This document shows positions 11,988-17,287 of a stretch of DNA of 64,000 bases, in pieces (the stretch's first letter is position 1; every line of letters starts with the position of its first letter). The translations under genes were made by a program, and so were the position numbers. This stretch comes from Pararhizobium sp. IMCC21322. Lineage in GTDB: Bacteria > Pseudomonadota > Alphaproteobacteria > Rhizobiales > GCA-2746425. The notes under the pieces were generated by a model, which had not been told where the DNA came from, did no database searches, and was given only the letters and a program-made list of their open reading frames with translations. The DNA lies in the NCBI RefSeq assembly GCF_030758295.1, contig NZ_CP132335.1, positions 2,270,412 to 2,334,411 of the forward strand, read 5' to 3'.

Positions 11988-12542
11988 TCAGATATCCTTT
12001 TGCCCAAGGGCTTCCCGGATGGCGTCAAGATTTGACTGTGAACCGGGGTTCTGGGGGCTGATGGTCAGCACGTCTTCGAAAGCTTCGGCAGCTTTTGCCA
12101 GTTGATTGCCGCGAATATGCACCAGTCCGCGCCCGGCAATAGCGCCAAAATGGCGCGGTTCCCGTTTCAGGGTTTCGGCAATATCGGCAAGCGAGGCCGG
12201 CAGGTTCTGCATCAGGTAATGCACCGTTGCACGCTTGTTCCACCCTTCAGCATAATCGGGAGCAAGTTTAATCATCTCATCAAATACGCTGCGTGCCTGC
12301 GCAAGGTCTGAATTATTCATGGCGTCCATGCCCTGACGCATCAATTGCTGCAACTCTTCGTTGGGAGCCGTGTGCCAGATTTCCCAGATCTGTTGTTCCA
12401 CAACAGCCGCCTCGCCAGCATCAGCTGCCGACTTCAACTCATCGAACAGGTCTGGAAGGCGCGGGTCAGCTTGGTCAGCAAAGCTGTTGCCTGGCAAAAG
12501 CGTGAGAAAAATAATTAAGAACAGGGATCGGAGCACAAGCAT
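11988..12542 (-). CDS. Secreted tetratricopeptide repeat protein
   Basis: This protein of about 184 residues has an N-terminal signal peptide (MLVLRSLFLIIFLTLLPGNSFA) and two or three TPR units covering most of the rest, for example MDAMNNSDLAQARSVFDEM, AEGWNKRATVHYLMQNLPAS and GRGLVHIRGNQLAKAAEAFE. TPR proteins act as protein-binding scaffolds; the partner here is unknown. The frame extends upstream to 12641, but that extension lacks a signal sequence, so the ATG at 12542 is preferred, although its AGGA site lies unusually close to the start. Similar short periplasmic TPR proteins are common in Hyphomicrobiales. Confidence 0.72.
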   Translation of the reverse strand: MLVLRSLFLIIFLTLLPGNSFADQADPRLPDLFDELKSAADAGEAAVVEQQIWEIWHTAPNEELQQLMRQGMDAMNNSDLAQARSVFDEMIKLAPDYAEGWNKRATVHYLMQNLPASLADIAETLKREPRHFGAIAGRGLVHIRGNQLAKAAEAFEDVLTISPQNPGSQSNLDAIREALGQKDI

Positions 12543-12718
12543 TCCTAAGAATATGGCACGATGCCAAAGCTTGGCAAGGGGTGATCCACAATGGAGTTCA
12601 GACCCCTGCATTACCCAAGCGACCTCTGGTCTATTGAACACAGCTTAGGCATCACCAGGAACGAAGCTGGCTTCACCTACAACGAGAGCCGCACACATTA
12701 GAAAACGCGATGGCCATA

Positions 12719-14593
12719 TTAAGCTCGCCTCCGTTTTTGCGAATGGAACCCTATTGATTTCCCGTCTTCGTATTTGCTCCATTCCCAATCAGCCAATAGT
12801 TCGGAAATAGCAGCCGATGGCACTGGTCTGCTGAAGTGGAAGCCCTGGACTTCCTTGCACCCAAGATTTTTTAGTAATGTTGCTTGCTCAATGGTTTCCA
12901 CGCCTTCGGCATTTGTGGTCATTCCCATAGAGGCGCCAAGGTTGATGACCGCTTCGATAATGCTGTCAGCCTCGGAAGACGAGCCCAAATCTTGCGTGAA
13001 TGATTTGTCGATCTTGATTTTGTCAAAAGGAAAACAACGCAGATAGCTGAGGCTTGAGTAGCCGGTGCCAAAATCATCCATCGCAATCCTGACGCCCAGT
13101 GCCTGCAATTCTGTGAGCACCGATATGGTTTCGTCGGTGTCGCTCAACAGGACCCCTTCGGTGATTTCAATTTCCAGACGGGCAGGGTTGATATCTTCAG
13201 CCTCAAGTGCATTTCGGACAGTGGCAACCAAATTGCCATGCCGGAATTGAACAGGTGACACGTTCACCGCAAACGTTAGTTCGGGCCAGTTCCTTGCTTC
13301 ACGGCAAGCCCGGCGTATTACCCAGTCCCCGATGGGGACAATGAGACCACACTCTTCTGCTAACGGGATGAATTTCTCGGTTGAGATCGGCCCGTCCTTT
13401 TTGTGGTTCCATCTCAGCAATGCCTCAACGCCTTTGATCGTAGTCGTCGCCAGATCTATCTGCGGCTGATAATGCAGCTCGAACTCATCCTCCAGGATTG
13501 CCGTCCTCAGGCTTGTCTGAATCTTTTTACGGGTAAGCAGAGCATCATTCATCTCCTCTTCAAAATACTGATAAGTACCGCGCTCTCCGCTTTTGGCCTT
13601 GTACAAGGCCTGATCTGCATGGCGCAGCATTGCCTGACCGTCGATTTCGTTACCAGCGGTTCGCAACGATATGCCGATGCTAACCCCAGTCATGACTTCG
13701 TTTCCATCCAAATCAAACGGTTCTGAGAATGCTGCGATCAATCGTTCGGCAAGGGCCGAGGATCCAGAAGGCTGGTCAGCGTGTTTCTGGATGATTGCAA
13801 ATTCATCACCGCCGAGCCGTGAAAGTACATCATTGCCGCGCAAGGAAGATGTCATCCGTTCGGCGGCTTGTTTCAACAACCGATCGCCAGCGGCGTGACC
13901 GAGAATGTCATTGACTTCCTTGAAATGATCCAGATCGATGCAGAGAACAGCCAGAGAGGTTTTTTGGCGATCAGCGTCTCCGATAGAGTGCAAAAGCCAC
14001 TCATTGAAAACGGAGCGGTTGGGCAAATTGGTAAGAGGATCGTGACTTGCAAGAAAAGATGACTGCTCGCTTGCACGCCTGAGAAGGTTCAAAGGGAATG
14101 TCCGCAGGAAGAAAAATGCACCAAAAGCAATAATCAACGTCACCAAAAGCAGCAAAGCGGAACTATTGGCTACTTTGAGAAGACTGTGGGTGACGACAAG
14201 ATATCCGACCTCGCGCCCGGCATCATGGAGCGGTTGTGTAACCGAAACATACGGTTTGAGGACATTATCGACACCTGTCTGCGTCACAGTTTCAGCGTCA
14301 GCATTCTTGACTTCGATTTTGTGTGCCAGATGGTCAACTTCGATCAACTCATTGATGCGAAGGGTCTCAAACTGCCACAAAGCCGGGTTGCGCCCTATGA
14401 GTTGCGAAAGGGTTTTGGCGTGCAGTTTGGCTTCTGATTCAATTTGGCCGCGTTCTAATTGTGCGCTGTAGTAGTAGTGCAGCAGCGGCGGAAAAACCGC
14501 GATAAAAATTGCAACTAAAAGTGCCATCAGCGTGGAAAATTGAACCATGCCGGGCGCAGTCTGCGGTGTTGTCATTGATGTTGGGGATTTCAT
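12719..14593 (-). CDS. Membrane-anchored GGDEF-EAL cyclic-di-GMP enzyme
   Basis: This 624-residue protein should make and/or break cyclic di-GMP. It has an N-terminal helix (FSTLMALLVAIFIAVFPPLL), a periplasmic segment of about 100 residues, and a second helix (LLLLVTLIIAFGAFFF). A GGDEF domain follows with an intact RLGGDEF core and an RxxD inhibitory site (RGND) five residues before it, then an EAL domain. The EAL domain keeps its catalytic residues: EALLRW, NVSP, EITEG, DDFGTGYSSL, KIDKSF and EGVET. Both activities therefore look possible. The ATG at 14593 lies 7 bases after the stop of the PstS-like gene, with GGTGA upstream, so the two are probably coupled. The periplasmic segment is the likely receiver of that protein's signal. 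Confidence 0.87.
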   Translation of the reverse strand: MKSPTSMTTPQTAPGMVQFSTLMALLVAIFIAVFPPLLHYYYSAQLERGQIESEAKLHAKTLSQLIGRNPALWQFETLRINELIEVDHLAHKIEVKNADAETVTQTGVDNVLKPYVSVTQPLHDAGREVGYLVVTHSLLKVANSSALLLLVTLIIAFGAFFFLRTFPLNLLRRASEQSSFLASHDPLTNLPNRSVFNEWLLHSIGDADRQKTSLAVLCIDLDHFKEVNDILGHAAGDRLLKQAAERMTSSLRGNDVLSRLGGDEFAIIQKHADQPSGSSALAERLIAAFSEPFDLDGNEVMTGVSIGISLRTAGNEIDGQAMLRHADQALYKAKSGERGTYQYFEEEMNDALLTRKKIQTSLRTAILEDEFELHYQPQIDLATTTIKGVEALLRWNHKKDGPISTEKFIPLAEECGLIVPIGDWVIRRACREARNWPELTFAVNVSPVQFRHGNLVATVRNALEAEDINPARLEIEITEGVLLSDTDETISVLTELQALGVRIAMDDFGTGYSSLSYLRCFPFDKIKIDKSFTQDLGSSSEADSIIEAVINLGASMGMTTNAEGVETIEQATLLKNLGCKEVQGFHFSRPVPSAAISELLADWEWSKYEDGKSIGFHSQKRRRA

Positions 14594-14600
14594 CTCAGTG

Positions 14601-15416
14601 TCACCGCGCTGGCGCATGGTTGGTTGCGGCCAGTATGGATTGCGCCTTTTCAGAAAAGACAAAATCGAAAAATTGAGAAGCCATGTTTGACTGGCGCTGC
14701 GTTTTCACAATGTACAAGCTCTTGCGGAGCCTCAGGTCCTGGCTGGAATCACCACCAACTTCCGGCAGAATACCATTGAGGGGCAAAACCTTTACGCGTC
14801 TGTTCTCTGTCATAATCTGGCCCATAGCGATTGCACCTATGGATCCATCCAGTTGTTCAAGCATATCGGCGTTGTCCTGATCATTTATCGCTTTCAGCAA
14901 GCCCGGTCTTTGATGCGCGGCTTTGATGGCCTGCGACATTCCGTCAGACAGGCCGCTCAAAATTTGTGTGTCTGTTTCCGACATTGGCCGAAGAACCAGT
15001 CTCACTGGTTGACCGGATGGCCAATAAGTCATTTCCCCGGAATACATCTGTGCAAGTTGCTCGGTTGTTACCGCATCCGCATCTGTGCCTGATGATGTGG
15101 CAACAGCAAGAGGCGTTATGGCATAAAGCCTTGCTTCAACCCCCTGTACTTTTTCGTCCCTTTTCAATACACGCGACGCGACTGAAAGATCGATGACACC
15201 TGCGATCAGGGCTTTTATGCCTCCCGAGCTTCCCAGGCTGGGAAGAACCTCTATCATTGCGCCGGGGTTTTGTTTTTCAAAGGCAGCACCAAGCAGAGTC
15301 ATACCGCCCAGCGCAGCACCGGTTCCACCGATACGCAGGGTGTCTCCGTGGGCTATTCCGTTAGCGCTGACGATCAGGAATGAAAAAATTCCGGTAAGTA
15401 TTGATGATAGACGCAT
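14601..15416 (-). CDS. PstS-like periplasmic solute-binding protein
   Basis: This 271-residue protein has a signal peptide of about 24 residues and the phosphate-binding-protein fold. The mature region begins DTLRIGGTGAALGGMTLL, then has LPSLGSSGGIKALIAGVIDLSVASR, which resembles the PstS ligand loop, and ends with FFDFVFSEKAQSIL. No pstCAB genes are nearby. Instead, the gene is directly followed by the GGDEF-EAL gene, which suggests a sensor role: the ligand-bound protein would touch the periplasmic part of that enzyme. Whether the ligand is phosphate or another oxyanion is not known. The start at 15416 gives a normal signal peptide. Confidence 0.82.
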   Translation of the reverse strand: MRLSSILTGIFSFLIVSANGIAHGDTLRIGGTGAALGGMTLLGAAFEKQNPGAMIEVLPSLGSSGGIKALIAGVIDLSVASRVLKRDEKVQGVEARLYAITPLAVATSSGTDADAVTTEQLAQMYSGEMTYWPSGQPVRLVLRPMSETDTQILSGLSDGMSQAIKAAHQRPGLLKAINDQDNADMLEQLDGSIGAIAMGQIMTENRRVKVLPLNGILPEVGGDSSQDLRLRKSLYIVKTQRQSNMASQFFDFVFSEKAQSILAATNHAPAR

Positions 15417-15871
15417 TGTGATCCTGGCGCTTAAATTGTATTAACCTAGCGATTGTAGAGGCTGTTCATAAAAGCGTGAAGAATTACACAATAATGAAAA
15501 AAGTAATTGATAGAATGTAATTCCGATTTTTCTTCAGAATTACATCACGACTTCCTTACGTGAATCCAGTCAATTCGGATCACTCTTTCCCAGATAGATC
15601 GCATTATATTTTCAAAAATATCGCCACCAATCTGTGCTGCTTGCAGCTGCTATTTGCGACGGACGGCGGATAATTTCGTAACGCCAGTCTGTTGTTTGCA
15701 TATTGCGGACTGCCGGGGGACGAGCAGCGCAAGACCCGGTCGATGCGGGCCGAGGCAAAGCGCGATGAGGCCTCCGACAAAACTATGCTGAACTTATTTG
15801 AAACCGGCCGATCTCAACGCTGGCGATGACAAGGGCGTTTTCACACGCATCGGGATATTCTGGTGAGCCCC
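15417..15871. other. Non-coding stretch, AT-rich then GC-rich
   Basis: The first part (15417-15640) is AT-rich and probably holds the promoter of the PstS-like gene, including the dyad annotated separately. The second part (about 15650-15870) is richer in G+C and contains a short protein-like stretch without a start (frame through 15709-15830) that matches no family I recognise. It may be a gene remnant or the trailing region of the homospermidine synthase gene. Confidence 0.5.
15515..15545. promoter_or_regulatory. Inverted repeat upstream of the PstS-like/GGDEF-EAL operon
   Basis: ATGTAATTC at 15515-15523 is mirrored exactly by GAATTACAT at 15537-15545 across 13 bases, and a further GAATTACA copy lies at 15481-15488. 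The spacing of the two arms is about two helical turns, centre to centre. The site is about 100 bases upstream of the operon start, a plausible operator for a dimeric regulator that is not identified. Confidence 0.45.
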
Positions 15872-17287
15872 CTAGAGCGGCACACCAATGGTGCGGGGAT
15901 CGGCCTGGATTTCACGAGGCGTAGTGAGTGGATGTCGGCCAAACAGGCTTTTGCCATCCGCAAACGGTGCTTTTACCCGGTGGGTATAGACATTGCCGAG
16001 ATAGGGTTCAGCAATCCCGAGTATGAAATCAGTGTCCAGATCCTCGGGCTCCAGCAAGCCTTCGCGTGGATGAGCCATCACATAGAGTATCGATGAAATG
16101 AGCCCGGCTATAACCTGCAGGCTGGTGGCGTTTGTCGTCTTGTAGGCTCGGGAAATTTCTGTGGAAACCTCCGAACCATACCACGCCACTTCATCGGTGG
16201 TGTCGCGGAAAATCATGACGCCAAGAGAGTCGATGCCACGATCAATTTCTTCCAGCATCACCCGAACCGGCCCATCCGGGTGCCAGTCGTTTCCAGAAGC
16301 GTTGATGACCGTATCCTGTGCTGCAGGGCAGGGCTGATAGCAGAAATAGGATGTGGGTTGATAAAGCAGTTCATCGCCATCACGCAGCGAGAGAAAATTG
16401 GCAATCGTGAAGGCTTCCACATGCGGAATGACCATTCCTGAGAACACGCCAAAAGTGGGTGAGTATCCAAGGGAGTGGTAAAGCGCAGAGCGCGTATCAA
16501 CTTCCAGATAGCGCACACCGCTGGCATCAAGGACAAAAGGTGCAATGGCTTCGTCTACGGGTTCATGGGTGCCGAAGGGAACGCAGATTTTCTCAGATGC
16601 CTCTTCCAGCAGCCCGTATATGGACCATGTGTTCAGCGCCATCTTTTCAGTGGACGGCGTGTCTGGTCGCTGGTCATCCATCTCGGTTATGATCACAGAG
16701 GTAATACCGAGCGTCTGAGCAAGCTCTGCCCAATCGGTTTGTAAGCGAGGTTGTGAGAACTCCGACCCCAGTACCTCTTGCCCCAGCATGCAGATAAGGC
16801 GCTTGGCAAAATGGCTGACGATGCCCGGATTGGCACCGTGACAGGTAATGGCGGTCGCGCCGCCGGAAAAGCGTTTCTTGGCTTGCTGTATGTCGCTGAA
16901 GCGCCCCCCATTATTGATCATATCTTCTGAGCCGACGAGATCCGCCCAGATTTCAAAACTGGTATCAACATAAAGAATGGAGCGTCGCTGACAGTACTCG
17001 ATCAGGGCCTTGCTGCAGATGTTTACAGATGCATTGACCAGAATGCCTGAGCCATCGTTGAAAAACTGGTCCAGCACATCATCCAGATTCTTGGAATTTA
17101 TGCAGCTTTCGACAAAGGATACGCCGTGATCCTGATGCAAATCAGCGCGGTCAAAGCTCTCTGAAACAACGAAAAAACGGGCCGGGTCCAAGTCTATATG
17201 ATTGAAGATAATGTCGAGGCCCGCATTACCGATGGAGCCAAACCCCAGCAGCACGAACGTACCGTCAAAACTCTGTTTCTGTGACAT
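15872..17287 (-). CDS. hss: Homospermidine synthase
   Basis: This 471-residue cytoplasmic enzyme joins two aminobutyl groups, from putrescine or spermidine, to give homospermidine in an NAD-dependent reaction (EC 2.5.1.44). It starts with a Rossmann nucleotide site (FVLLGFGSIGNAGLDII) and carries the ITCHGANPGIVSHFAKRL segment typical of bacterial homospermidine synthases and the related saccharopine dehydrogenases. The length fits the bacterial enzyme of about 475 residues. Homospermidine is a common polyamine of Hyphomicrobiales, which supports both the call and the taxonomic reading. The gene stands alone, with about 180 bases upstream for a promoter. Confidence 0.9.
   Translation of the reverse strand: MSQKQSFDGTFVLLGFGSIGNAGLDIIFNHIDLDPARFFVVSESFDRADLHQDHGVSFVESCINSKNLDDVLDQFFNDGSGILVNASVNICSKALIEYCQRRSILYVDTSFEIWADLVGSEDMINNGGRFSDIQQAKKRFSGGATAITCHGANPGIVSHFAKRLICMLGQEVLGSEFSQPRLQTDWAELAQTLGITSVIITEMDDQRPDTPSTEKMALNTWSIYGLLEEASEKICVPFGTHEPVDEAIAPFVLDASGVRYLEVDTRSALYHSLGYSPTFGVFSGMVIPHVEAFTIANFLSLRDGDELLYQPTSYFCYQPCPAAQDTVINASGNDWHPDGPVRVMLEEIDRGIDSLGVMIFRDTTDEVAWYGSEVSTEISRAYKTTNATSLQVIAGLISSILYVMAHPREGLLEPEDLDTDFILGIAEPYLGNVYTHRVKAPFADGKSLFGRHPLTTPREIQADPRTIGVPL

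Follow-up and report, generated by a model that had tools for sequence, protein, structure and literature searches.

A PstS-like binding protein encoded beside a membrane GGDEF-EAL protein: a proposed two-subunit receptor with exchangeable outputs

The gene pair and its periplasmic sensor

We analyzed a stretch of 64,000 nt (the window) from the genome of Pararhizobium sp. IMCC21322 (contig NZ_CP132335.1, positions 2,270,412 to 2,334,411), in which a gene for a PstS-like periplasmic binding protein adjoins a gene for a membrane protein with GGDEF and EAL domains, and we propose that the two products form one receptor. The pair sits at approximately 2,283–2,286 kb of the 5.25 Mb one-contig genome, in which the binding-protein subfamily and the sensor domain of the receptor have a single match each. 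In the list of open reading frames (ORFs) with translations, the exported binding protein of 271 aa is encoded at 14601–15416 on the reverse strand, and it matches the Pfam model PBP_like_2 (PF12849) with 82 bits (cut-off 27). Its N-terminus has a signal-peptide-like stretch (15345–15416, reverse strand) with putative cleavage near the G-D junction of A-H-G-D, judged by inspection of the translation and of homologous N-termini rather than with a prediction tool. Between the end of the stop codon at 14601 and the start of the receptor ATG at 14593 lies an intergenic gap of 7 nt (14594–14600), which is also the gap in an ortholog locus of the same genus (L013); a GGTGA across the binding-protein stop codon could serve as the ribosome site for the receptor gene.

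The receptor gene (12719–14593, reverse strand) encodes 624 aa counted from this ATG, and an earlier TTG start at 14662 is also possible. Pfam assigns a GGDEF domain (13580–14050, 150 bits) and an EAL domain (12824–13513, 241 bits), and the N-terminal 180 residues match no Pfam model at an E value up to 0.001. Inspected alignments with solved GGDEF-EAL proteins show intact GGDEF, EAL, NVSP, EITE, DDFGTG, KIDK, and AEGVE catalytic motifs and an RxxD five residues before GGDEF. A structural model, with domain boundaries set by inspection, gives the layout transmembrane (TM) helix, about 100 aa, TM helix, GGDEF, EAL, in which TM1 (14480–14542) runs on into a long sensor helix and is followed by the periplasmic sensor (14183–14476) and TM2 (14105–14173), all on the reverse strand. 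These results agree with the first-pass annotation of this DNA, which had placed the PstS-like gene 7 bases upstream of the GGDEF-EAL gene, had described a periplasmic segment of about 100 residues (98 or so in the model), and had called both motifs intact.

The sensor model (157 residues, from an 80-row alignment) has a predicted local distance difference test (pLDDT) score of 94 and a predicted template modeling (pTM) score of 0.80, and in it a long helix running on from TM1 is followed by a short one, by four strands, and by a helix leading into TM2. Its top structural matches are models and crystal structures of WalK (9a5d, Z 11.7; 4ywz, Z 10.1), and CdgS9, an ortholog of LapD, gives the second-best match with its periplasmic domain (4u64, Z 10.6 over 115 residues at 3.5 Å); the best Foldseek hit has an E value of 1.7e-4 and is the sole match under 0.001. 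The sensor is probably a PAS/Cache-like domain, and only probably so because in structures with long helices a Z score under about 13 can reflect a merely common arrangement. No Pfam family was found for the sensor, the 80 rows giving two single-row chance matches, and its sequence had only chance-level matches in the PDB (best E value 0.31). One Trp (model residue 58, protein residue 73, codon 14375–14377 on the reverse strand) is invariant in all 80 sensor rows, and Arg 64 in model numbering is present in 75 of them. Because it is placed after the long helix, the Trp probably lies at the membrane-distal end of the domain. CdgS9 anchors its partner LapG through a tip tryptophan (PMC4359373), a parallel that we regard as a lead only.

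Conserved adjacency and exchange of outputs

Relatives of the pair were collected by scanning named genomes with a binding-protein alignment of six rows; of the 98 relatives obtained, the 80 best were retained. The sensor profile was built from 76 of these 80 loci and the window, the first version leaving out L081 (where the ORF had been picked in the wrong frame), L082, L095, and L118. Among these best 80 loci, a sensor gene adjoins the binding-protein gene in every case, downstream and on the same strand in 79 and upstream in one (L082). As the training set of the profile overlaps the tested loci, detection of the sensor is partly circular, but its adjacency is not; some of the loci are near-copies (e.g., L070 and L071). 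The sensor starts no more than 110 nt past the binding-protein stop in 77 loci, a count that, like the linked-chain rows used below, excludes L045, L118, and L082; at L049 the binding-protein frame runs without a stop past the sensor start, giving a spacing of –185. Because adjacency recurs in 80 of 80 loci, the pairing is not a chance neighborhood. No natural fusion, that is, no ORF matching both profiles, was found in the window, at loci L013 to L121, or at the sensor-side loci. Frame-broken rows were removed from the alignments (L045 and L118 from that of the binding protein, L118 from that of the sensor). The broken copies, in the binding protein at L045 and L118, in the sensor also at L118, and in the receptor at L095, come from records of Silicimonas, Roseovarius marisflavi, and Pseudophaeobacter leonis and reflect decay or sequencing errors.

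The association holds from both sides in genomes sampled by taxonomy. Two of four other genomes of the genus have the pair, with binding-protein identities of 65 and 75%, and in one of them (G003) the further neighbors differ. Among 61 relatives including the genome itself, the binding protein (E value up to 1e-10) was found in seven and the sensor (E value up to 0.001) in five, which are exactly those with the binding protein of the module; the remaining two have weak binding-protein matches (L017 and L018, 75 and 64 bits) with no sensor nearby. In a class set of 385 genomes, binding proteins (E value up to 1e-12) occur at 14 places outside the genome itself, none of which had a part in the sensor profile, and the sensor adjoins 10 of them; one other, L033, stops at a contig edge. 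Searching the same set for the sensor gave 15 places outside the genome itself, 12 with an adjoining binding protein, two of these only partial (L129, at a contig edge, and L136). In a phylum set of 398 genomes the sensor has 21 matches, and when the genome itself and one place from the earlier count are set aside, the binding protein adjoins the sensor at 18 of the remaining 19, all but the weakest match; one genus contributes nine of the 19. Combined, 30 of 34 sensor places have the binding protein. Judged by record titles, many of them of metagenome-assembled genomes, the module is present in Pseudomonadota, Thermodesulfobacteriota, Nitrospirota, Nitrospinota, and Myxococcota.

At a locus from another family (L016, genome G060), a binding protein of the same type precedes a hybrid histidine kinase with an N-terminus similar to the one of the window receptor, which suggested that the receptor output is exchanged. 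Outputs of the 80 named loci were assigned by profile, seeded with Pfam coordinates: 47 are GGDEF or GGDEF-EAL proteins, the GGDEF motif itself being unseen in a few (L090, L108), 27 are histidine kinases, some with PAS and receiver domains and others lacking them, three are PAS-GAF-HD-GYP proteins, and three could not be classed, two being broken (L095, L118) and one lying at a contig end (L063). The 47 divide into 37 GGDEF-EAL (one truncated at a contig end), eight PAS-GGDEF-EAL, and two PAS-PAS-GGDEF proteins. On a binding-protein tree made with a quick method (79 rows, 77 with an assigned class), three output classes require at least 10 changes; well-supported branches alone require at least six for the GGDEF label and at least four for the kinase label, counting the two unclassed rows as non-members. 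Because adjacency holds while the output class changes on the tree, binding protein and sensor stay together as outputs change. The coupling to c-di-GMP put forward in the first-pass annotation thus applies to the window and is too narrow for the group, since the same binding protein and sensor are also found on kinases and HD-GYP proteins.

The binding protein co-varies more with the periplasmic sensor than with the output. In 47 GGDEF-bearing loci including the window, pairwise distances of the binding protein correlate with those of the sensor at r = 0.66, of the GGDEF domain at 0.35, and of the TM part at 0.32, and sensor and GGDEF domain of one polypeptide correlate at 0.26. In 36 plain GGDEF-EAL loci, with the whole output region, the values are 0.74 for binding protein and sensor, 0.63 for binding protein and output, and 0.60 for sensor and output, compared with 0.64 for two halves of the binding protein; the partial correlations of the binding protein are 0.58 with the sensor versus 0.35 with the output, and 199 of 200 subsamples point the same way. 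A Mantel test on all 79 loci gives r = 0.56, a value reached by none of 999 permutations.

Ligand, docking, and alternative explanations

We propose that the two genes encode a two-subunit receptor in which the PstS-like protein no longer serves a transporter and would act as the ligand-detecting subunit. It would dock on the periplasmic PAS/Cache-like domain, probably near the membrane-distal end with the invariant Trp, and the ligand state would change the receptor dimer and so shift the balance between c-di-GMP synthesis by the GGDEF domain and breakdown by the EAL domain; either activity might be the one that rises. The conserved unit would be the binding protein with the TM-sensor-TM part, onto which the cytoplasmic output (GGDEF-EAL, PAS-GGDEF, histidine kinase, hybrid kinase, or HD-GYP) is exchangeable. 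We put the probability of this reading at roughly 77%. Docking was modeled with the homologous pair of Aurantimonas coralicida (L044), made a single chain of 433 residues by reading through the stop codon of the homolog (127 rows, 29 of them linked), and the model has a pLDDT of 91.6 and a pTM of 0.75, with low confidence in the linker. Assuming in-domain errors of 2–4 Å, we estimate a pTM of 0.48–0.57 for undocked parts, and under the same assumption 0.75 would imply a mean error between the parts of approximately 4–6.5 Å; the score of this homolog pair is suggestive only, in favor of a defined docking. With the kept adjacency, the near-complete prediction of each gene by the other, and the co-variation, it supports that part of the signaling pair proposed in the first-pass annotation which couples the binding protein to a receptor and not to a transporter.

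Several observations weigh against this proposal. The module is missing from two of the five genomes of the genus, three of the 14 class binding proteins (L028, L034, and L035) have no sensor within 1.5 kb, and four of the 34 sensor places have no binding protein. L028 and L035 score like module members (303 and 319 bits) and have no sensor within that distance, so a protein may belong to the subfamily without being paired. Genes of one operon are inherited together, which by itself raises correlations; what counts is therefore less their level than the difference between sensor and output, and this is moderate in the cleaner comparison with the larger output region. The docking score comes from one homolog chain, without a non-cognate control or an interface error matrix; the sensor fold is matched at Z 10–12, under the 13 advised for models with long helices; and no shared neighbor names the ligand.

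The loci with one partner only are of several kinds. The sensorless binding proteins lie at L028:1363–2352 and L035:1438–2397, and a second copy in genome G374 (L027) has the sensor. At L034:1201–3593 a more distant binding protein (128–131 bits) precedes a histidine kinase with an extracellular region that by eye is larger and different, possibly a second way of coupling such binding proteins to receptors. L133, L135, and L137 have the sensor without the binding protein; L133:1–3341 encodes a kinase with the module sensor, and by eye its divergent neighbor resembles another binding-protein-like enzyme family.

A small ligand probably binds between the two lobes, and it need not be phosphate. 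That it is periplasmic phosphate is a version of the two-subunit receptor, with odds that overlap those given above, and one we consider unlikely. In its favor, the best structural neighbors of the binding-protein part are 4q8r and 4gd5 (both Z 27.3), the top 30 structural rows are all phosphate-binding or putative phosphate-binding proteins with ModA proteins lower, and a SLGS[SG]GG loop, R82 (75 of 79 rows), and R143 (79 of 79) are kept. However, RxxGSGT, the corresponding anion loop of transport PstS (as in Escherichia coli), is replaced in the second lobe by R-P-x-x-[ED]-[STA]-D, with an acidic residue at 147 in 78 and D149 in 67 of 79 rows; in the window the loop reads RPMSETD (R143–D149, 14970–14990, reverse strand). 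A further signature of the subfamily is [TN]-D-Q-[ED] at 178–181. The two acidic residues near the anion site would speak against simple binding of phosphate; alternatively, they would favor a ligand that is protonated, neutral, or zwitterionic. Because the oxyanion loop appears remodeled, phosphate is not supported as the ligand.

Regulatory sequence and gene neighbors offer phosphate no support either. A Pho-box pattern (up to three mismatches) has nine matches in the window versus 5.9 expected, a number reached in 12 of 100 shuffles, and none in the region upstream of the pair (15417–15871). This is a weak test because the pst locus itself shows no clear box: it has four matches versus 1.5 expected (reached in 11 of 200 shuffles), none clearly at the pstS starts. 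Scans for promoters and terminators did not exceed chance, and Rfam gave no match at gathering score between 11900 and 18500. The neighbor survey covered the 150 nearest flanking ORFs (picks unchecked), of which 104 were run through Pfam; among the 25 most frequent of 121 families, those found in at least three members are signaling domains (HATPase_c in six) and Aldolase_II (in four), and none of the 25 is a phosphate family. Phosphate as the signal, a reading of the phosphate-binding type named in the first-pass annotation, is not upheld by the replaced anion loop, the Pho-box scan, or the neighbor families shown.

Around the pair itself, the upstream neighbor (15872–17287, reverse strand) matches the Pfam family Sacchrp_dh_NADP, is shared with genome G001, is absent from the G003 locus, and has no NCBIfam match at an E value up to 1e-10. 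A polyamine signal, considered because this ORF may be homospermidine-synthase-like, was dropped as the neighbor is not kept in G003. On the other side, a TPR protein that by eye is probably exported is encoded on the same strand at 11988–12641, 77 nt after the receptor gene, and in G001 and G003 a different gene takes its place.

It might also be that the binding protein is an uptake protein stranded by gene loss, which serves pst or another transporter and stands beside the receptor incidentally. It does have the fold and family of transport PstS, but the pairing is kept at all 80 named loci although outputs change, and the pst locus of this genome already has two pstS genes of its own. That locus (pstS-pstS-pstC-pstA-pstB-phoU, approximately 1,352–1,359 kb) lies about 0.92 Mb from the pair, its two tandem pstS-like genes occupying approximately 1,351.7–1,354.2 kb (L019:5686–8183). 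As the first-pass annotation had noted, no pst transporter genes adjoin the pair: searched against the whole genome, the PstC and PstB profiles reach their cut-offs at 1,354.9–1,357.9 kb and nowhere else, and the window (2,270.4–2,334.4 kb) yielded no gene for a pst permease or ATPase, the weaker PstC and PstB matches listed also lying elsewhere. The two PstS proteins of the pst locus have no sensor nearby and score less than 20 bits on the subfamily profile, compared with at least 173.6 bits for the 80 named members, broken copies included. The NCBIfam model TIGR02136 (cut-off 206.6 bits) gives 61 bits for the window protein, and a non-transport role was not argued from this shortfall as the pst-linked PstS proteins, with 121 and 128 bits, fall short too. 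Coupling to the receptor is the better reading of these sequences, and the stranded-uptake explanation is the least probable that we considered.

Only slightly less improbable is that the system works inside-out in the manner of LapD, with cytoplasmic c-di-GMP altering the periplasmic domain so that this domain would capture or release the binding protein. It would fit the second-best match of the sensor model, the CdgS9 periplasmic domain, which binds its periplasmic partner through the tip tryptophan (PMC4359373). However, histidine kinases and HD-GYP proteins have the sensor as well, and an inside-out mode makes little sense for them; moreover, the receptor scores 121 bits on the NCBIfam LapD model (cut-off 1020), over residues 176–592, the shared GGDEF-EAL part. 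The GGDEF and EAL domains of LapD are degenerate, whereas the motifs of the window receptor are intact.

Relation to known systems

The external signal is known for few c-di-GMP receptors. If the two-subunit receptor is real, a ligand found for any member would inform signaling circuits across several phyla, the natural output swaps would be a system for learning how one periplasmic event drives a cyclase, a phosphodiesterase, a kinase, or an HD-GYP protein, and the group would document a nutrient carrier turned into a dedicated sensor. More tentatively, and as a little less than an even bet, we suggest a widespread unnamed cassette, in which a PstS-derived protein that has left transport, with its pocket re-tuned to a ligand other than phosphate, and a PAS/Cache-like sensor unnamed in Pfam are plugged as a unit into c-di-GMP, kinase, and HD-GYP outputs across five phyla. 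We found no description of the PstS-like module in open-access full texts, subscription papers being mostly outside the search, and a review of c-di-GMP sensing states that within the PBP clan only SBP_bac_3 had been studied as a domain of such proteins (PMC8846402). Receptors steered by binding proteins are established, with NspS-MbaA for c-di-GMP (PMC8967002) and AioX-AioS for kinases (PMC5908839). The principle is known, and, going by the literature searched, neither the module nor its sensor domain nor its ligand seems to have been described.

Transport PstS of the TIGR02136 type shares fold and family with the window binding protein; it lies with pstCAB, whereas the window protein has no adjoining transporter, a remodeled anion loop, and a subfamily of its own. 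LapD and CdgS9 probably share with the window sensor the fold of the small periplasmic domain, along with a conserved tryptophan, but LapD signals inside-out and recruits the protease LapG (PMC4359373). In the AioX-AioS, ArxX, and ArrX arsenic oxyanion receptors, a binding protein of an oxyanion-type fold likewise signals through a membrane protein, there a histidine kinase, and not through a transporter; AioX is PhnD-like (PMC5908839), whereas the listed matches of the window binding protein are of PstS and ModA types. No chain named AioX is among its 29 PDB sequence matches up to an E value of 0.001, a list that excludes nothing. The closest counterpart is NspS-MbaA of Vibrio cholerae and Sinorhizobium meliloti, in which a separate periplasmic binding protein likewise steers a membrane GGDEF-EAL protein (PMC8967002, PMC9993111). 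Features of this type are present in the window, where the binding-protein gene adjoins that of a membrane receptor with a periplasmic domain and with intact GGDEF and EAL motifs. NspS, a relative of PotD, binds polyamines, and the window protein is PstS-like (PF12849). By analogy, the PstS-like protein most likely sets the output of its enzyme as NspS does on MbaA.

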